A stretch of 64,000 nucleotides of DNA from Pelosinus sp. UFO1. Lineage in GTDB: Bacteria; Bacillota; Negativicutes; DSM-13327. Location: assembly GCF_000725345.1 (NCBI RefSeq), contig NZ_CP008852.1:4394001-4458000 (forward strand), written 5' to 3'. Made by a program: the position numbers and the translations under genes. Positions 5,181-63,419 of the stretch are shown here, in pieces. Position 1 is the first letter of the stretch. Each line of letters starts with the position of its first letter. The notes below the pieces were generated by a model, which saw only the letters and a list, made by a program, of their open reading frames with translations, was not told where the DNA came from and searched no databases.

Positions 5181-5211
5181 CGAACTACAGGGACACAGAG
5201 GGCGCAGATTA
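5181..5211. repeat. Degenerate single arm of the dispersed intergenic repeat
   Basis: GAACTACAGGGACACAGAGG plus GCGCAG is one arm of the CACAAAG/CACAGAG repeat family found in many gaps from 32.9 to 63.4 kb. It is the only trace of that family seen below 32.9 kb. Confidence 0.55.
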
Positions 5212-32905: not shown

Positions 32906-33376
32906 GAACCACAAAGACACAAAGGACACAAAGGGGTTATGTCAGTATTATACGTTTAATTCCATTGCGTAAGGAAGTTACATTAAAATTGATTAATAAT
33001 CCTAATTGTAATCCGGTAATTTTCAAATAAGACAGTAGTTGAGCATTGTGTATTGGCATTAAACTTTCTACTGCTTTTAATTCAATAATCAATACTTTAT
33101 CCACTAATAAATCCAATCTACCTTCTCCAATTAGATGACCTTTATAATTTATTGCAAGTGATTTTTGACTTTCAAATGGTATCTTACGTAAAATTAATTC
33201 TAGGGATAAAGCTTGTTCATATACACTTTCTAGATAGCCTGGTCCCAGAACTTTATGAACTTCTATAGCTGCGCCAATAACCTTATTAGCTAATACACCT
33301 GTCTTATCATCTAAAACTCCGTGCATCTTTCAGCCCCCTTGTGTTGTGCGTTAGCACAATTGTGCCTTTGTGGTTC
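32906..33376. repeat. Gene-bearing copy of the three-way-junction repeat
   Basis: Left part GAACCACAAAGACACAA, right part TTGTGCCTTTGTGGTTC (16 of 17 pairs). Inside are arm A halves CACAAAGGGG (32927-32936) and CCCCCTTGTG (33334-33343, 9 of 10 pairs), and stem B TTGTGC-gtta-GCACAA. The loop of arm A is the GxxExxY gene: its stop codon begins at 32937, immediately after arm A, and its start is 7 nt from the other half. The other copies have a 4-12 nt loop there, or in one case a longer unpaired segment. Confidence 0.85.
32937..33326 (-). CDS. GxxExxY protein, predicted PD-(D/E)XK nuclease
   Basis: 129 aa with the name-giving motif GYLESVY (residues 30-36, counted GYLESVY) and PD-(D/E)XK-like residues Asp72 (GRLDLLV), Glu82 and Lys84 (IIELKAV). 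The family (PDDEXK_3) is widespread and of unknown function. The gene interrupts the heptose operon and lies exactly within the arm-A loop of an intergenic repeat. Its ribosome binding site AGGGGG (33339-33334) is formed by arm A itself, 7 nt before the ATG. I infer that gene and repeat move or persist as a unit. Confidence 0.88.
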   Translation of the reverse strand: MHGVLDDKTGVLANKVIGAAIEVHKVLGPGYLESVYEQALSLELILRKIPFESQKSLAINYKGHLIGEGRLDLLVDKVLIIELKAVESLMPIHNAQLLSYLKITGLQLGLLINFNVTSLRNGIKRIILT

Positions 33377-33884: not shown

Positions 33885-33982
33885 TAACCACAAAGACACA
33901 AAGGACACAAAGATTTTTATACTTTATTACTATAAGTTCTCCATTGTGTTGCACCTCAGTGCAATTGTGTCTTTGTGGTTAA
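33885..33982. repeat. Three-way-junction repeat between rfaE2 and rfaE1
   Basis: Outer stem TTAACCACAAAGACACAA / TTGTGTCTTTGTGGTTAA, 18 perfect pairs; stem B TTGCAC-ctca-GTGCAA. Arm A is degenerate here with an AT-rich segment of about 40 nt. Lies wholly between two genes of the heptose operon, so it must be transcribed. Confidence 0.85.
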
Positions 33983-37665: not shown

Positions 37666-37696
37666 TTAACCGCAGAGGCTCAGAGGACATAGAGAA
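37666..37696. repeat. Degenerate repeat arm
   Basis: TTAACCGCAGAGGCTCAGAG followed by GACATAGAG, one arm of the dispersed repeat, directly next to the full copy at 37714-37795. Confidence 0.6.
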
Positions 37697-37713
37697 GAAA
37701 AAGAAAAAGAAAT

Positions 37714-37795
37714 GAACCACAAAGACACAAAGGGCACAAAGGGGTTCTTACTATCCTTTGTGTACTGCGATAGCAGTTTTGTGCTTTTGTGGTTC
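37714..37795. repeat. Three-way-junction repeat copy
   Basis: Outer stem GAACCACAAAGACACAA with TTGTGCTTTTGTGGTTC (two non-Watson-Crick positions), arm A CACAAAGG / CCTTTGTG with a 12-nt loop, stem B ACTGC-gata-GCAGT. The start of the loop (GGTT) matches the edge of the gene-bearing copy at 32933-32938, so it may be a gene-less relative. The copy also touches nothing coding: the adjacent gene ends at 37814. Confidence 0.85.
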
Positions 37796-38386: not shown

Positions 38387-39631
38387 TTAGAAGAAGAACT
38401 CAACTTGTGCTTGATAGAATTTAGTTTTTTCAGTGGAATTAACAATAGGTTTCAAATCAGCATATTTAACGCGAAGAACAGTGTTCAACATTGGAGTGTA
38501 GTTAAATCCTACTTCGTAACCTTTAGTACCATAAGTCGGTTGACCCAATGCACTGTATGCGCCATCAAAAGTAGCCTTAGGAGATGCATTAGCTTCTAAA
38601 TGACGGTAGTTAACCCATGTGCCATAAGAACCAACTTTCTTTTTGTCAGCGCCTTTATAACCAAGCTCAGCATAATATGCTTTATTTTCGTTATCAGCAT
38701 CTGAAGCACCGTATGAACTGCTTAAGCTCCAGTTAGGAGTGAACTTTGTAGTAAAGCCAGCTTCCCAAACTTTTACTTTATCAGTACCGCTAAATCCATT
38801 CAATTCTCCATTATTATCTTTATCCTTGAACTGGTAGTAACCACCGTTTAAAGTAGTTGCTTTTGAAGTGTTATATTTCAAACCAAGACCAGTTACTTCT
38901 AAATAGTTGGTAGTTCCAAGGCCCCATACATCATTATTATTTTCTTTACCATAGAATACATCAGCTTTTACTACATTACCGAATTGGAAGTCTACACCAT
39001 TTAATGTACTATCAATCATTAAACCATTGTTTAAGAAGTAATCAAAACGACCAATAGTAGCAGTCGTTCCAGCGATTTGTCCTTTTACATAGGCATTATC
39101 CATAGTTACAGTGTTATCGTCGCCACCTTTTAAGTTGTTGACGGCTTGTAAACGACCATAATAAGCCCATTGGTCATTGATAGTACCATCAAGATGTACA
39201 CGAGTACGTAAGTTAATTTTATTAGTTGTTTGATCAGTATCTTCAAATCTCAAACGAGCTTCACCAGTTACTTTGATAGTAGAAGAATTTTTTTCTAATT
39301 TAGTTACGCGAACATTCAAACCTTCTAATTCGCTAGCGAATTCTACGGAAAGTTTGTCGATGGTAGCTTTTTGGCTAGCATCTGCTTTGTCGGAATGAGC
39401 CATAGCTTTTGCTACGATTTGAGCCATTTCATAACGGCTGATCATTTTGTCGCCTTTGTATGTGCCATCGCCATAACCGTCAACGATACCTGCTTTTGCC
39501 AATGAGCTTACAGCATCATAGGACCAGTGTTTTGCAGGAACGTCAGAGAAAGGATTTGTTGCAGCGAAAGAAGTACCAGCTACGCCAAGTATCATTGCCG
39601 CTGCCAAGGAAGCTACTAATTGTTTTTTCAT
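38387..39631 (-). CDS. SLH-domain outer-membrane porin (OmpM-like) 1
   Basis: 414 aa. Signal peptide (1-23, ending SFAAT), SLH domain (NPFSDVPAKHWSYDAVSSLA through GDKMISRYEMAQIVAKAM, about 25-90) that binds peptidoglycan-linked polymer, a short coiled coil (about 100-115), then beta-barrel strands ending in a terminal Phe (VEFFF), the outer-membrane assembly signal. Such proteins tether the outer membrane to the wall in Negativicutes. AAGGAG ribosome binding site. Its ATG overlaps the stop of a 27-codon upstream ORF. Confidence 0.93.
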   Translation of the reverse strand: MKKQLVASLAAAMILGVAGTSFAATNPFSDVPAKHWSYDAVSSLAKAGIVDGYGDGTYKGDKMISRYEMAQIVAKAMAHSDKADASQKATIDKLSVEFASELEGLNVRVTKLEKNSSTIKVTGEARLRFEDTDQTTNKINLRTRVHLDGTINDQWAYYGRLQAVNNLKGGDDNTVTMDNAYVKGQIAGTTATIGRFDYFLNNGLMIDSTLNGVDFQFGNVVKADVFYGKENNNDVWGLGTTNYLEVTGLGLKYNTSKATTLNGGYYQFKDKDNNGELNGFSGTDKVKVWEAGFTTKFTPNWSLSSSYGASDADNENKAYYAELGYKGADKKKVGSYGTWVNYRHLEANASPKATFDGAYSALGQPTYGTKGYEVGFNYTPMLNTVLRVKYADLKPIVNSTEKTKFYQAQVEFFF

Positions 39632-39711
39632 GATAATCTCTCCTTAGGTTTTATATTTTTTGGGGTTACGATGAACTTCCACCTAAGGAAGGATATCTTT
39701 TGAGTATCCAT
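39628..39711 (-). CDS. 27-aa upstream ORF overlapping porin 1 (ATGA)
   Basis: ATG 39711 with GAGG 4 nt before it, reading MDTQKISFLR... and ending at a TGA that shares bases with the porin ATG (ATGA). Porin leaders 2 and 3 have the same GAGGAAAC[A/G]TGGA[C/T]ACTCA start region, there in frame with the porin. Expression is not shown; it may be a coupling peptide or simply a conserved regulatory leader. Confidence 0.4.
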   Translation of the reverse strand: MDTQKISFLRWKFIVTPKNIKPKERLS

Positions 39712-39721
39712 GTTTCCTCAA
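39700..39721 (-). promoter_or_regulatory. Shared porin leader element, copy 1
   Basis: 22-nt element with GAGGAAACATGGATACTCA, bounded by TTGAG/CTCAA inverted ends, 69 nt upstream of the porin ATG. Nearly identical elements lie at 41546-41567 and 43708-43727. Confidence 0.6.
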
Positions 39722-39896
39722 TGTTATCCCTACTTAAAGTTTACAGTTCATATCTATTCACTACTGCGAGAATTTTTTGTCATACAAAAATTTCTTTTGA
39801 TGACAATTGCTTTCTAGCAGTGAAAGATCTTCAAAACAAATCTCCATATAAGTAATATATTCTATATATTGAAAAATATTCAGCATTTGTATTAAT

Positions 39897-39945
39897 TTTT
39901 CCTGCTATTTTTTAAGATTATATTAACTTTATATGAAAATTTTAA
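39897..39945 (-). promoter_or_regulatory. Promoter region of SLH porin 1
   Basis: Minus strand TTAAAA (39945-39940), 17-bp spacer, TATAAT (39922-39917), then after 10 nt AGCAGGAAAA (39906-39897). The intergenic stretch 39712-40053 is AT-rich, otherwise without ORFs, and ends in the terminator of porin 2, so it is a leader of about 290 nt plus promoter. Confidence 0.5.
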
Positions 39946-40053
39946 CATATTGTTTACATTTCCAATTTTACACAATAATGACTGGTAAGTCAAGTTGATT
40001 TTTAAAAGATATTAATCGAAAATAAATATAGCTGAACTCTTCAGTTAATTTAA

Positions 40054-40085
40054 AAATGAGCCTCCTAATGAAAGGAGGCTCATTT
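40054..40085 (-). terminator. Terminator of SLH porin 2
   Basis: 13-bp stem AAATGAGCCTCCT / AGGAGGCTCATTT with a 6-nt loop, followed on the minus strand by TTTAAATT, 12 bp past the stop at 40097. Confidence 0.88.
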
Positions 40086-40096
40086 CCTATGTTATA

Positions 40097-41470
40097 TTAG
40101 AAACCGTAAGTAATTGTACCCATGAAGTATTTTCTATCAGCTGTTCCAGCATAGTTTTTATCAGGATTGTAATTTAAGCTCAATAAACCATTTTTGAAGA
40201 GGGTATATTCCACGCCATATTCGTAACCCTTGATATCATTGGCACCAACGCCACCACTATTATCAGTGAAATTACGAGTTGTATAAGCTTTAGGGTCAAA
40301 ACCAGCTTCTGCTTTAGTATATCCAACCCATAGGCCAAATGAACCAACTTTAGCAGCATCTGCTCCTTTGTATTTCACTTGAGCCCATTTAGCCTTAGCA
40401 GTGTCAGCAAGAACATCTGCGCTATTCTCAGCATATTCTGCACTTATCGCAATGTTTTTGAATGCTTTATAAGTAGTACCAACTGCCCATGTATCATAAT
40501 TGGATTGGCCATTGGATTTTTTACCTTGATCTGCAAAATAACTTGCAGTCAAATCAAGTTTATCATTTACTGGATACGCAGCGTTTGCGAATACGAAAGT
40601 ACGATTGTCAACAGCAACAGCATCTTTTACTAAATAATTACCAACATCACCGGCTGCCACAACATAATTGTTAGTAACAACACCAGCATTATTAACTACG
40701 TTCCACTTCTTACCAACATCGCTTGCAGTTACTTTAGTATAAGCAGGTGCTGAAGCAGCTGTATAATTTCTCTTAACAATACCAGCATATACTTTAAGCT
40801 TATTACCTGTTCCGACTCTTAATCCATCCCAGTTACTGCTGGTATCCATGATAAGACCTTTACCAAGCCATAGAGGCATACGTCCTAAGGAAACTTCATC
40901 AAGTCCAAAAGCCTTACCAGTTACATAAGCTTGGTCAACTGCTGCATTACCATTTACTTCACCAGCTTTAGATTCTTGACTATAGCGGCCTTTGAAAGTC
41001 CAGTTATTGTCAAGAGGAGCTGTCATCATTAAACGCAAACGAGTTTTGTACTCTGTGTTAGGATTAGCTGTGTCAGTGGATTCCATACGTTGACGAAGTT
41101 GACCATTGAATTTAATATTGCTCATTTTCTTCTCAATAGCACTTACGCGTACACCAAGCTTGTCCAATTCATCAGAATACTCAGCTTGCAATTTTTTGAT
41201 TTCGGCTTTTTGCTCAGCGTTTGCTTTTTCTTCGTTACCCATAGCTTTTGCTACGATTTGTGCCATTTCATAACGAGTGATGGTTTTGTCACCTTTGAAA
41301 GTGCCATCGCCATAACCGTCAACAACACCAGCTTTTGCTAATTTTGTTACGGAATCATAAGACCAGTGTTTTGCAGGAACGTCAACGAAAGGATTGGATG
41401 CAGCGAAGGAAGTACCAGCTACACCAAGGATCATTGCGGCTGCCAAGGAAGCTACTAATTGTTTTTTCAT
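40097..41470 (-). CDS. SLH-domain outer-membrane porin (OmpM-like) 2
   Basis: 457 aa from ATG 41470 (AAGGAGAG upstream). The signal peptide MKKQLVASLAAAMILGVAGT is identical to that of porin 1. SLH domain NPFVDVPAKHWSYDSVTKLA through MAQIVAKAM, coiled-coil EKKMSNI region, then barrel with terminal Phe (GTITYGF). The frame continues upstream in phase to the GAGG-preceded ATG at 41557 (29 more residues), which could be a translated upstream ORF fused to the porin. The signal peptide argues that 41470 starts the functional protein. Confidence 0.92.
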   Translation of the reverse strand: MKKQLVASLAAAMILGVAGTSFAASNPFVDVPAKHWSYDSVTKLAKAGVVDGYGDGTFKGDKTITRYEMAQIVAKAMGNEEKANAEQKAEIKKLQAEYSDELDKLGVRVSAIEKKMSNIKFNGQLRQRMESTDTANPNTEYKTRLRLMMTAPLDNNWTFKGRYSQESKAGEVNGNAAVDQAYVTGKAFGLDEVSLGRMPLWLGKGLIMDTSSNWDGLRVGTGNKLKVYAGIVKRNYTAASAPAYTKVTASDVGKKWNVVNNAGVVTNNYVVAAGDVGNYLVKDAVAVDNRTFVFANAAYPVNDKLDLTASYFADQGKKSNGQSNYDTWAVGTTYKAFKNIAISAEYAENSADVLADTAKAKWAQVKYKGADAAKVGSFGLWVGYTKAEAGFDPKAYTTRNFTDNSGGVGANDIKGYEYGVEYTLFKNGLLSLNYNPDKNYAGTADRKYFMGTITYGF

Positions 41471-41545
41471 GTTTAGAAATCTCTCCTTAGTTTTTTTTAT
41501 TTTTGCTCGGCAAGTTCGCAACATAAGTCTAAGAAGAGTCCATGA

Positions 41546-41567
41546 TTGAGTGTCCATGTTTCCTCAA
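41546..41567 (-). promoter_or_regulatory. Shared porin leader element, copy 2
   Basis: GAGGAAACATGGACACTCA with TTGAG/CTCAA ends, 76 nt upstream of the porin 2 start. Its ATG (41557) is in frame with the porin. Confidence 0.6.
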
Positions 41568-41640
41568 CTGTCCTTATTCGCAACTTACTATGTCAAATCT
41601 TACCTTGCTAATTGCTATATTCTCCCTAAGTTTTTTTATT

Positions 41641-41646
41641 CCTGCT
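41641..41646 (-). promoter_or_regulatory. AGCAGGAATA leader motif of porin 2
   Basis: Minus-strand GAGCAGGAATAAA, 170 nt upstream of the porin 2 ATG and just after the 3' end of the YqgF-like gene. No clear -10/-35 pair could be picked in the A-rich sequence before it. Confidence 0.35.
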
Positions 41647-41687
41647 CAATTTTTGTTTTTTTTGTACAAATTGTTACCTTTTTGTTA

Positions 41688-42113
41688 CTATATTGTTAAC
41701 ATTTTAGAAAAGTAGCGCTCTGCTAGTATCACGGCCACATAATCATCCACTGGACAGGGTGGTACTTGCATCGTTACCGGGATTAGGCGTTTTAAGCCTT
41801 TGGGAGGATTTTCTCGCCAATAACGGAGGCGGCCTTCGTCGGTGGTGCGATACTCGTCTACGAGTATCAGAGTCATAGATTTTTCATTTTTTTCTAATTC
41901 TTTCAGTTTTTTTTCAGCTTCTTTACTGGAAGTCCCATCTCCCATAATGATTGTGTTTGTATTATAATTGTTAGTTAGTTGTTCTACTGTGGTAACTAGA
42001 TTGATTGTGTCTATTACCGCTTGCTTTAATACGCCTTTTTCTTTATGTACAACAGCTATTCCACATTTTTCTCGGCCTGGATCAATGCTGATAATTGTTT
42101 GGTTTATGGTCAC
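41688..42113 (-). CDS. YqgF/RuvX-like RNase H-fold nuclease
   Basis: 141 aa: ISIDPGREKCGIAVV (first catalytic Asp in the DxG motif), IIMGDGTSSKEAEKK, LVDEYRTTDEGRLRYW (resembles the DER-TT-EA motif of YqgF/RuvX) and VDDYVAVILAERYF (last acidic residue). RuvX-type enzymes process pre-16S rRNA ends or act on nucleic-acid junctions. GTG start with GGGGTG upstream. It is a single gene between two porins with no obvious functional link. Confidence 0.78.
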   Translation of the reverse strand: MTINQTIISIDPGREKCGIAVVHKEKGVLKQAVIDTINLVTTVEQLTNNYNTNTIIMGDGTSSKEAEKKLKELEKNEKSMTLILVDEYRTTDEGRLRYWRENPPKGLKRLIPVTMQVPPCPVDDYVAVILAERYFSKMLTI

Positions 42114-42229
42114 GACACACCCCGCCTTTCAGGCACCCCTCTGGTAGAGGGGAATTTTTATATTGTATTGTTAGTGTTCTCGCTATGTGGGGGAATTCCT
42201 TTGAGGGATTGGGGGAATGGCGAATTTTT

Positions 42230-42432
42230 GAACCACAGAGGACATGGAGGGAAAAGATAATATTGAAACGCGAAGGGGACTTGAACCACAAAGACACAGA
42301 GGGCACAAAGAAAATAATTGAAATAGAATGGACACGAGGGGCATTGAACCACAGAGGTGCAGAGGACACAGAGAAAAATTTTGAAACGCGAAGGGCGCAA
42401 GCCGCTTACGCGGACACGAAGAACACAAAGGA
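42230..42432. repeat. Cluster of tandem degenerate repeat arms
   Basis: In about 200 bp there are at least four same-orientation arms (GAACCACAGAGGACATGGAG at 42230, GAACCACAAAGACACAGAGG at 42283, GAACCACAGAGGTGCAGAGG at 42346, and CGGACACGAAGAACACAAAG near 42411) plus GAAACGCGAAGG half-arms. No matching right arms are present. This fills most of the 42114-42491 gap; no gene was seen in it. Confidence 0.75.
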
Positions 42433-42451
42433 AATTTCATAGGTAACAGAA

Positions 42452-42477
42452 AAAGAGCACCCCGAGGGGTGCTCTTT
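42452..42477 (-). terminator. Terminator of SLH porin 3
   Basis: 12-bp stem AAAGAGCACCCC / GGGGTGCTCTTT with a 2-nt loop, then TTTCTG on the minus strand; 15 bp past the stop at 42492. Confidence 0.9.
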
Positions 42478-42491
42478 GGATTAAGGATTAA

Positions 42492-43622
42492 TTAGAATTT
42501 TACGTTAACAGCTGCGGAAGTACGTGCATTCATGTTATCGAAATCTTGGTATTTAACATTTAAGTTAGCGTTTTTAGTAAGAGCTTTATCATATTGATAT
42601 TCCATACCTTTAATTGCTACGTCTGTAGGAAGAGCAATTACATCAGAGCTAGAGTAAGCATTGTAAACGCCTGCATCTGCATCTCTATGAAGAACAGTCA
42701 AGCCAGCTTTGTTGAATTTAACACCAAAAGCAGTAGCACTTGCTTTGTTAGTATCGTTTTTAACATAATCAGCAAGAGCAGTTACGCCGTTAGCGATAGG
42801 AGCAGAACCATTGATTGCGTATGCCTTGTTGTCACCGTTTTTCAAGTAGTCAGCAGTTATTTTTCCACCCATTACATTAACACCATATTCAGCAGCATAC
42901 ATGTGTTCAGGAGCATTAGCAGTTCCATTAGTAGTAGTTCCAGTATTATTACCTGCAAACAATTTTAATGCACCAGTTTGAAGTCCAAGACCAGTCATTC
43001 TATCATCAAACAGAATACCTGAACCCAAAGTTACGTCTTGACGACCTACAGTAGCTTTTGCACCCAATGCATTGAATGCTACGTTAGCAGTATCTAATTT
43101 AACGCCAACAGTTTGGTTGTTATCGCTAGGATTGAAGCTTGCACTTAAACGTGCATTGTAGCCAATTTCATTGTTGATTTTACCATCAAAAGAAACGCGA
43201 GTACGAAGGTCAGTTTTGTCATTAGTATCTTCAACATTAGTGTAACGTACACGAGCATCACCAGAGATTTTTACCATGTTGTCGATTTGGTTTTGCATAC
43301 CTTCTACTTTAACACCCATAGTGTTTAATTCAGTAGCGAATTCTTTTTCTAATTTTTCAACAGTTGCTTTTTGATCATTGTTCAATGATTTTGTCATAGC
43401 TTTTGCTACGATTTGAGCCATTTCGTAACGAGTAACAGTTTTGTCACCTTTGAAAGTTCCATCGCCATAACCATCAACGATACCAGCTTGTGCTAATTTG
43501 GATACTGCATCATATGACCAGTGTTTTACAGGAACATCGGAAAAAGGATTAGCGAATGCTGGTACAGCAATGCTAGCAGCTAATGCAGTTGTTACTGCTA
43601 CTTTTAAAAGTCTCTTGTTCAT
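42492..43622 (-). CDS. SLH-domain outer-membrane porin (OmpM-like) 3
   Basis: 376 aa from ATG 43622 (AGGGGG upstream). Signal peptide MNKRLLKVAVTTALAASIAV ending AFANP, SLH domain NPFSDVPVKHWSYDAVSKLA through YEMAQIVAKAM, coiled coil (EKLEKEFATELNTMG), barrel with terminal Phe (AAVNVKF). More divergent from porins 1 and 2 than they are from each other. The frame continues upstream to GTG 43718, part of the shared leader element. Its promoter region is duplicated (43640-44144). Confidence 0.92.
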   Translation of the reverse strand: MNKRLLKVAVTTALAASIAVPAFANPFSDVPVKHWSYDAVSKLAQAGIVDGYGDGTFKGDKTVTRYEMAQIVAKAMTKSLNNDQKATVEKLEKEFATELNTMGVKVEGMQNQIDNMVKISGDARVRYTNVEDTNDKTDLRTRVSFDGKINNEIGYNARLSASFNPSDNNQTVGVKLDTANVAFNALGAKATVGRQDVTLGSGILFDDRMTGLGLQTGALKLFAGNNTGTTTNGTANAPEHMYAAEYGVNVMGGKITADYLKNGDNKAYAINGSAPIANGVTALADYVKNDTNKASATAFGVKFNKAGLTVLHRDADAGVYNAYSSSDVIALPTDVAIKGMEYQYDKALTKNANLNVKYQDFDNMNARTSAAVNVKF

Positions 43623-43707
43623 TTGAAGAATCCCCCTAAAATGTTTTTTAATTTTGCGGGTGCTATCACCAACATGATAAGGTCTATCGATTAAAGGGGG
43701 TGTTCCA

Positions 43708-43727
43708 TGAGTGTCCACGTTTCCTCA
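43708..43727 (-). promoter_or_regulatory. Shared porin leader element, copy 3
   Basis: GAGGAAACGTGGACACTCA, 86 nt upstream of the porin 3 ATG, with GTG in place of ATG. Absent from the second copy of the duplicated upstream region. Confidence 0.6.
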
Positions 43728-45575: not shown

Positions 45576-45758
45576 GAACCACAAAGACACAAAGGACACT
45601 AAGGGATTCTGAAACGCGAATATGCAAAGCGCTGTGCGGGGAAAAAACAAGAAGGAATTTTGAACCACAGAGAACACAGAGGGCGCAGAGGGAGTATCGT
45701 ATTATTTTTAGAGATAATTTCCCGCATCCTCTCTGTGTTCTCTGCGCCTCTGCGGTTC
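45576..45758. repeat. Repeat arm plus CAGAGG-type palindromic repeat
   Basis: A single arm GAACCACAAAGACACAAAGG at 45576, then a full palindromic copy at 45662-45758 whose arms are GAACCACAGAGAACACAGAG... and ...GTTCTCTGCGCCTCTGCGGTTC. The arms use CACAGAG units in place of CACAAAG but keep the 9-bp period. Confidence 0.75.
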
Positions 45759-46872: not shown

Positions 46873-46907
46873 AAATTTCTCCCTTTGCATAAAACATAAG
46901 AACTTTT

Positions 46908-46951
46908 GAACCACGGAGGACACAGAGAGTTATATTTTTTCTCTGTAGTTC
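46908..46951. repeat. Short hairpin form of the dispersed repeat
   Basis: GAACCACGGAGGACACAGAG then CTCTGTAGTTC; outer ends pair and an AT-rich loop lies between. Located between lptB and the permease gene. Confidence 0.6.
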
Positions 46952-46979
46952 ATCAACGTTTAACATACCTATTTCAAAC

Positions 46980-47764: not shown

Positions 47765-47842
47765 GAACCACAAAGACACAAAGGACACTATAGAAGTTAT
47801 TCTTTTGTGTACCGCAACAGCGGTATTGTGTCTTTGTGGTTC
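47765..47842. repeat. Three-way-junction repeat copy
   Basis: Outer stem of 17 perfect pairs (GAACCACAAAGACACAA / TTGTGTCTTTGTGGTTC), arm A CACTATAGAA / TTCTTTTGTG (8 of 10 pairs), stem B TACCGC-aaca-GCGGTA (6 pairs). Located between lptA and lptB. Confidence 0.88.
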
Positions 47843-51769: not shown

Positions 51770-51851
51770 GAACCACAAAGACACAAAGGCACTATAGGAA
51801 TGGATGTTTCCTATTGTGTGCCACGCCAGTGGCATTGTGTCTTTGTGGTTC
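51770..51851. repeat. Three-way-junction repeat copy
   Basis: Outer stem of 17 perfect pairs, arm A CACTATAGGAA / TTCCTATTGTG (10 of 11 pairs, 7-nt loop), stem B TGCCAC-gcca-GTGGCA (6 pairs). Lies between kdsA and kdsD. Confidence 0.88.
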
Positions 51852-52700: not shown

Positions 52701-52746
52701 AAGAATAACCTCCTTAATTTTCGATGATTTGGTGACATGTTTTTTT

Positions 52747-52858
52747 GAGCCACAGATGAGATTTATATTTCCCTAATTGTAATTTCCCCTCTGTGGTTCT
52801 CTGTGCCCTCTGTGTTCAACCGTTCTTTAACCGCAGAGGCGCAGAGGACGCTGAGAAC
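52747..52858. repeat. Divergent CAGAGG-type repeat cluster
   Basis: GAGCCACAGATGAG, then CCTCTGTGGTTCTCTGTGCC and CTCTGTGTTCAACC, then AACCGCAGAGGCGCAGAGGA: right and left arms of the CACAGAG form arranged back to back. Confidence 0.6.
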
Positions 52859-52869
52859 TAAATTTGCTA

Positions 52870-59216: not shown

Positions 59217-59319
59217 TTTAACCGCCGAGGCGCAGAGAGCGCTGAGGGAATTTAAGTGAAATGCTTAATTGCATTTTTTCCTCTGTGCTCTCTGTGATTC
59301 TTTGTGTCCTCTGCGCTTC
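59217..59319. repeat. Divergent CAGAGG-type palindromic repeat
   Basis: TTTAACCGCCGAGGCGCAGA on the left and TCTTTGTGTCCTCTGCGCTT on the right around an AT-rich centre; member of the same 9-bp-period family, between lpxI and lpxB. Confidence 0.65.
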
Positions 59320-59347
59320 ATTCTTCTATCTATTTCTTCCTATTTTA

Positions 59348-63342: not shown

Positions 63343-63419
63343 GAACCACAAAGACACAAAGGGCACAAAGAATGCTTTTCTTTGTGTACCACGCTAGTGG
63401 TATTGTGTCTTTGTGGTTC
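63343..63419. repeat. Three-way-junction repeat, type copy
   Basis: 77 nt with 64 of them paired on paper: outer stem of 17 (GAACCACAAAGACACAA / TTGTGTCTTTGTGGTTC), arm A of 9 (CACAAAGAA-tgctt-TTCTTTGTG) and stem B of 6 (TACCAC-gcta-GTGGTA), joined by a single AGGG linker. The best-preserved copy in the window. Confidence 0.92.

Follow-up and report, generated by a model that had tools for sequence, protein, structure and literature searches.

The short palindromes scattered between genes in this stretch of DNA are most likely non-autonomous, gene-less derivatives of an element that carries a single gene, GxxExxY, and this assignment is well supported. The window analysed here is the whole stretch of 64,000 nucleotides, positions 4394001-4458000 of a contig of 5,115,410 bp. 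Short and gene-bearing copies have their outer arms, a small inner hairpin (stem B) and the position of a second hairpin (arm A) in common, and in the one gene-bearing copy a gene for a predicted nuclease lies in the arm A loop. We consider it likely that all of these copies form a single element family whose cognate gene is GxxExxY. On balance we also lean towards the fuller reading, in which the short copies are the gene-less form, the nuclease acts on the element ends and the element is thereby copied or replaced.

Anatomy of the short and gene-bearing copies

The six copies named in the initial annotation were each found at the coordinates it gave (Table 1). Read on the gene-sense strand, which is the minus strand of the window, a short copy consists of a 17-nt arm, the stem B hairpin (6 + 4 + 6 nt), the arm A hairpin, which starts with CACAAAG, and a second 17-nt arm. 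The window contains 14 occurrences of the outer arm GAACCACAAAGACACAA (17 nt, no more than 3 mismatches), whereas dinucleotide shuffles yielded 0.13 on average and never more than 2. When folded with DNA parameters, all five short copies form three-way junctions (z between -7.6 and -10.2). The pairings that had been listed for stem B were recovered apart from minor details; the stem of the copy at 37714 has five clean pairs and an A-A, and the loop, described as ending in A, starts with T on the gene-sense strand.

Copies that lie free of any larger repeat (free copies), all those in the window among them, differ from one another and are intergenic. The initial annotation argued against a terminator, and the repeat is indeed not one; the sequences flanking the copies lack a T tract at the hairpin end. 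It also placed the repeat inside operons. The free copies do lie between genes, but this placement fails for many copies elsewhere, which lie directly after terminators within a larger repeat. No Rfam family was matched in the window, and near one copy elsewhere the only match was to an unrelated T-box.

Table 1. Repeat copies, the GxxExxY gene and related repeat ends, in window coordinates.
Position	Strand	Feature	Length	Details
63343-63419	-	Short three-way-junction copy	77 bp	R1 match 91.7 bits
63343-63359 / 63403-63419		Arms of copy 63343
63364-63386		Arm A hairpin of copy 63343
63387-63402		Stem B hairpin of copy 63343
51770-51851	-	Short three-way-junction copy	82 bp	Flanked by co-directional genes; orthologous copy in G006
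47765-47842	-	Three-way-junction short copy	78 bp
37714-37795	-	Three-way-junction short copy	82 bp
33885-33981	-	Three-way-junction short copy	97 bp
32906-33376	-	Gene-bearing copy	471 bp	Outer arms and stem B as in short copies; nuclease gene in arm A loop
33344-33359	-	Stem B hairpin of gene-bearing copy		TTGTGC GTTA GCACAA; 5' of the gene on the gene-sense strand
32937-33326	-	GxxExxY gene	129 aa	PD-(D/E)XK nuclease family; TIGR04256 E 7e-43, PF13366 E 3.6e-42
37666-37701		Lone end of related repeat		CGCAGAG type
42226-42445		Clustered related repeat ends		CACAGAG, CGCGAAG and CACAAAG types
45576-45757		Repeat end followed by hairpin element		CACAAAG-type end, then CRCAGAG-type element
46904-46960		CRCAGAG-type element		Absent from four relatives (residual gap ACTA)
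52743-52862		Two CRCAGAG-type ends
59218-59320		CRCAGAG-type hairpin element		G006 has a three-way-junction copy at the same site
5182-5206	+	Degenerate repeat end		Isolated

The GxxExxY gene of the copy at 32906 is the only one in the genome, and its start region, AAGGGGGCTGAAAG-ATG, adjoins the arm A stem. The protein scored 145.7 bits with TIGR04256 (GxxExxY; cut-off 35) and 143.9 bits with PF13366 (PDDEXK_3; cut-off 22). Among 90 homologues, the predicted catalytic residues of the RecB/Cas4-type arrangement (D, ExK, QxxxY) are conserved at 100% for D, 100% for E, 99% for K, 99% for Q and 100% for Y. A structure predicted for the protein (pLDDT 94) was compared with PDB structures using Foldseek, and the best matches were Cas4 SSO0001 and lambda-type exonucleases, all of them weak (E 1.2e-3 or worse, probability 0.96-1.00). 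By motif and fold, then, the protein is predicted to be a RecB/Cas4-like PD-(D/E)XK nuclease. A search of PDB sequences with it matched no chain, and a PADLOC search gave no match. Carriage by phages was considered and rejected with 0 matches in 50,697 records; among 72,556 plasmid records there were 8 matches.

Covariation of the repeat and what may maintain it

The covariance model R1, for which 29 distinct copies were used, found 53 places with E < 1e-9 in the genome (5.1 Mb), and the arm was matched 143 times genome-wide. A search of this kind had been proposed in the initial annotation, and the preference for pairing in stem B that it predicted is present genome-wide. In an unfitted MAFFT alignment, 89.6% of stem B cells are paired and changes on both sides of the stem occur in five of the six pairs (23 cells). 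The covariation score of the whole structure was 0.148 compared to 0.100 for shuffled and at most 0.069 for slid controls. Similarly, when 51 copies found in seven other genomes were aligned with structure ignored, stem B was 96% paired with both-side changes in four of the six pairs. Stem B and an outer-arm pair also differ in a paired manner between the orthologous copies at site 27221 of three genomes (G000, which is the genome under study, G001 and G003). Because stem B covaries in the genome set, in the independent set of 51 copies and among the orthologues at site 27221, we conclude that the shape is kept beyond the sequence, as had been claimed, even between orthologous copies at one site. 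The further claim that arm A varies in the same way holds for one pair; otherwise arm A shows little covariation as aligned, mostly because its loop length and composition vary between lineages.

Mismatches of the G-U and A-C kinds are about equally frequent (32 and 23 cells in A1, 46 and 45 in A3). This balance speaks against selection on RNA of the sense strand, and it leaves selection at the DNA level and mutation undistinguished. Both selection and correction by template switching fit the pairing, since perfect inverted repeats could gain paired changes when the replicating strand switches template. According to the latter explanation, which we consider unlikely, the palindromes are inert relics in which replication copies one hairpin arm from its partner (quasi-palindrome correction) and the shape is under no selection. 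It would account for paired changes in orthologous copies that seem to be immobile, for balanced wobble and A-C mismatches, which are expected without strand-specific selection, and for the near-perfect outer arms retained by old copies. It sits less well with the two inner hairpins, the T that opens the B loop and the CACAAAG beside B, all of which are conserved in many diverged copies and in six related genomes. It also leaves unexplained why such ends specifically flank GxxExxY genes.

GxxExxY loci in other genomes

We sampled 80 GxxExxY loci from Cyanobacteria, Chloroflexi, Planctomycetes, Acidobacteria, Bacteroidetes, several Proteobacteria and others. Inverted ends with the strict motif were found on both sides at 33 of the 80 loci but at none of 818 random pairs. 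The looser unit CNCNNAG was present on both sides at 53 of 78 loci and on at least one side at 69 of 78, and an inverted repeat of at least 19/24 was found in the flanks of 56 of 78 loci compared to 3 of 194 random pairs. The repeat is specific to the family: as a control, TIGR02436 genes in the same genomes had CNCNNAG ends on both sides in 0 of 20 cases (p 9e-9). The two ends of a locus also match each other, with 1.06 mismatches within a locus at six variable end positions compared to 3.43 between loci, and 0 of 2000 permutations gave a value as low. Loci with more distant proteins also tend to have more different ends (Mantel r 0.28, a value that includes any effect of host relatedness). 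The occurrence of GxxExxY between inverted repeats in many phyla points to a class of small mobile element that has so far gone unrecognised. The initial annotation had likened the repeat to substrates of structure-recognising nucleases or transposases. The nuclease part of that comparison is borne out, since the copy at 32906 carries a gene for a PD-(D/E)XK nuclease whose family is systematically flanked by such repeats.

Gene and repeat also co-occur in 120 relatives from the same class (odds ratio 21, p 4e-6; p 0.001 when the family of the window's host is left out). Distant genomes that bear the gene contain the exact motif up to 106 times, compared to 0-1 times for the reversed motif. The strict motif is absent from 9 of 29 distant GxxExxY genomes, and four relatives (G001, G003, G005 and G007), three of them incomplete assemblies, have 29-254 motif copies with no GxxExxY gene detected. 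Genomes of the genus that have GxxExxY contain several repeat types each and one gene only, so that there is no one-to-one correspondence between ends and gene. In the distant elements inspected, the B hairpin was not seen.

Closely related species differ at the locus between the hldE-like and heptosyltransferase genes, where GxxExxY is present in G000, G002, G004 and G006 and nothing is present in G001 and G003. The ends at this locus are CACAAAG in G000, CGCAGAG in G004 and G006, and CGCGAAG with its own B hairpin in G002. Between G000 and G006 the flanks are 86 and 90% identical and the genes 67.5%, whereas between G004 and G006 the flanks are 79 and 77% identical and the genes 86.7%. Because identities of gene and flanks disagree in this way, we conclude that gene and ends are exchanged as a unit at this locus. 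We think it quite improbable that the locus is only a recombination hot spot, at which sister species swap the hldE-GxxExxY interval by homologous recombination with no activity encoded by the element. The exchange does involve a small tract at one intergenic site common to four species, and orthologous intergenic sites generally differ in repeat type between species, both of which would fit such swapping; matching ends around GxxExxY at unrelated loci in unrelated phyla would be left without an explanation.

The initial annotation had also suggested a comparison of empty and filled sites. For the short copies both kinds of site exist between species, with no clear direction, and target-site duplications were not seen, in that direct repeats were not in excess at 29 free copies. 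The state of three species at site 27221 resembles a loss that left 7 nt (AACCACC) behind. The site of the G000 copy at 521681 is occupied in G002 and G004 by another palindromic repeat (GGTCACTGGTATATGACATTAACGCTTCGCC...), similar pieces of which occur at other sites.

Transcription, mobility and comparison to known systems

About 18 near-identical copies of 95 bp are embedded in a carrier repeat of approximately 160 bp, GGTATCAGAATTTATAAGTTTCTAGTTAAAAAGATT-element-AAAAAGGACGCGTAGCGTTTTTCTTA, which in G000 lies immediately downstream of intrinsic terminators. Diverged versions of the carrier occur in G002, G004 and G009, and in G002 and G004 related carrier flanks surround most of the top-scoring copies. 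Since these near-identical copies are passengers of the carrier, they provide no evidence of independent mobility, and an independent recent amplification of the 95-bp copies was ruled out. An orientation linked to replication, as in IS200-like elements, was rejected as well; the raw counts were strong, but most high-scoring copies in G002 and G004 are borne by the carrier, and for free copies the effects of replication and transcription are inseparable.

Orientation bears on the idea that the repeat works as RNA, namely as a folded part of operon transcripts that affects mRNA processing, stability or translation in the manner of BIME/REP or RNase III substrates. Among free copies between co-directional genes, 21 of 24 face the transcribed direction (3 the opposite one), and the RNA fold is strong. 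Against this, G-U is not in excess over A-C on the sense strand, the orientation of free copies fits replication as well as transcription, many copies sit after terminators in the carrier, and the Rfam searches described above matched no family to the repeat. We therefore consider a role as RNA very unlikely.

Returning to the GxxExxY element, we propose the following mechanism. The full element would be the 471-bp copy, made of terminal inverted arms of CNCNNAG units and the single gene, with the B hairpin as an addition in this lineage just inside the 5' arm. In short copies the gene would have disappeared from the arm A loop while ends and hairpins were retained. The nuclease would recognise the element ends, probably as hairpins or junctions that form by extrusion from duplex DNA or when single strands are exposed, and would cut there. 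Repair or replication could then copy the element to new sites or swap one variant for another. That the nuclease acts on folded DNA is a tentative proposal, and it is by inference from the arrangement of gene and ends that we assign the copying to this action. We regard it as possible, though somewhat unlikely, that GxxExxY genes define, across phyla, a class of mobile or homing elements that have a single gene and do without a transposase, in which a small RecB/Cas4-like nuclease recognises its own folded ends (here a three-way junction) and gene-less intergenic copies are both substrates and products.

Parts of this arrangement resemble known systems. The intervening sequences of 23S rRNA (S23, or four-helix-bundle ORF, TIGR02436) are hairpin inserts with or without a small ORF in the loop, as is the case here; they differ in their protein family, the copies described here are intergenic, and the flanks of TIGR02436 genes are of a heptamer type. 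Homing endonuclease elements include PD-(D/E)XK homing nucleases such as I-SspI. The likeness to these is that a nuclease gene lies within a copy of its presumed target and that variants are replaced at the same locus, whereas here there is neither an intron nor an intein and the presumed target is a multicopy repeat.

REP/REPIN sequences with TnpA-REP (RAYT) are short extragenic hairpin-forming inverted repeats, present in tens to hundreds of copies per genome and probably non-autonomous (PMC3116915, PMC2817692, PMC8266576). The repeat studied here is also a high-copy, extragenic, hairpin-forming inverted repeat, as judged from the model and arm matches given above, and in both systems the repeat flanks one gene-bearing locus. 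That locus encodes a PD-(D/E)XK nuclease here and a Y1 HUH transposase there, the ends are CNCNNAG units rather than hairpins tagged with GTAG/CGTC, and the three-way-junction fold is a further difference. Least likely of the explanations considered is that a TnpA-REP- or IS200-like Y1 (HUH) transposase moves the repeat in trans, as a REP/REPIN-like element, and that GxxExxY is only cargo or a later passenger. In favour of this, the element is short, intergenic and hairpin-ended without target duplication, and a single Y1_Tnp gene (254 aa) lies at 398045 of the genome, with 2-10 in relatives. Against it, repeat, motif and carrier are all absent beside that gene and its relatives, while GxxExxY genes are flanked. 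MITEs are gene-less, intergenic sequences with terminal inverted repeats that derive from a gene-bearing parent (PMC10969869). The short copies and the gene-bearing parent likewise have terminal inverted repeats in common, whereas target-site duplication was not found here and the parent encodes a nuclease and no known transposase. Thus, the repeat is functionally like REP/RAYT and MITE systems, yet it lacks the linked Y1 transposase of the one and the target duplication of the other and its gene is of a different kind. Multicopy intergenic sequences of Geobacter are palindromic and lie in many intergenic regions, several per region (PMC2996986); compared by description only, they differ in that the available part of that source reports no gene association for them.

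GxxExxY is a curated, functionally blank family found in many phyla, and the matching inverted repeats give it a testable role. Likewise, a repeat that is found alone in tens to hundreds of copies gains a candidate partner gene. If the nuclease acts on folded DNA, this would provide a transposase-free route for spreading or maintaining repeats and, if true, could help explain the short palindromes that fill so many bacterial intergenic regions. In the open literature, to which our search was confined (subscription literature and supplements were outside its scope), the name GxxExxY occurs in two of 5.39 million papers, the one mention examined being an incidental annotation, and the repeat sequences were not found in the full text of open papers.

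Several other observations were made. The four-helix-bundle gene (TIGR02436) was considered as a partner of the repeat and rejected, being absent from G000 and having different flanking repeats in other genomes. In several phyla TIGR02436 genes are mostly flanked by inverted heptamer arrays, for example GTCAGGAGTCAGGAGTCA and GTCATTAGTCATTAGTC, and this family may form a parallel class with heptamer-array ends. The Y1_Tnp protein of G000 (398045-398380) has a C-terminal extension and none of the repeats in its flanks; G004 has ten matches to the Y1_Tnp family. Of the 53 strong copies, 0 lie within 1280000-2970000, a third of the chromosome in which 17.5 were expected, with boundaries that were set after the data had been seen, and a similar gap occurs in G002 and G004 among the strong matches listed. 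At syntenic sites of window positions 37666-59320 in G001-G006, the repeat type (CACAAAG, CRCAGAG or CRCGAAG) varies by species at orthologous intergenic regions. Finally, an SLH-domain outer-membrane porin is present as three tandem paralogues with common leader repeats at window positions 38387-43718.
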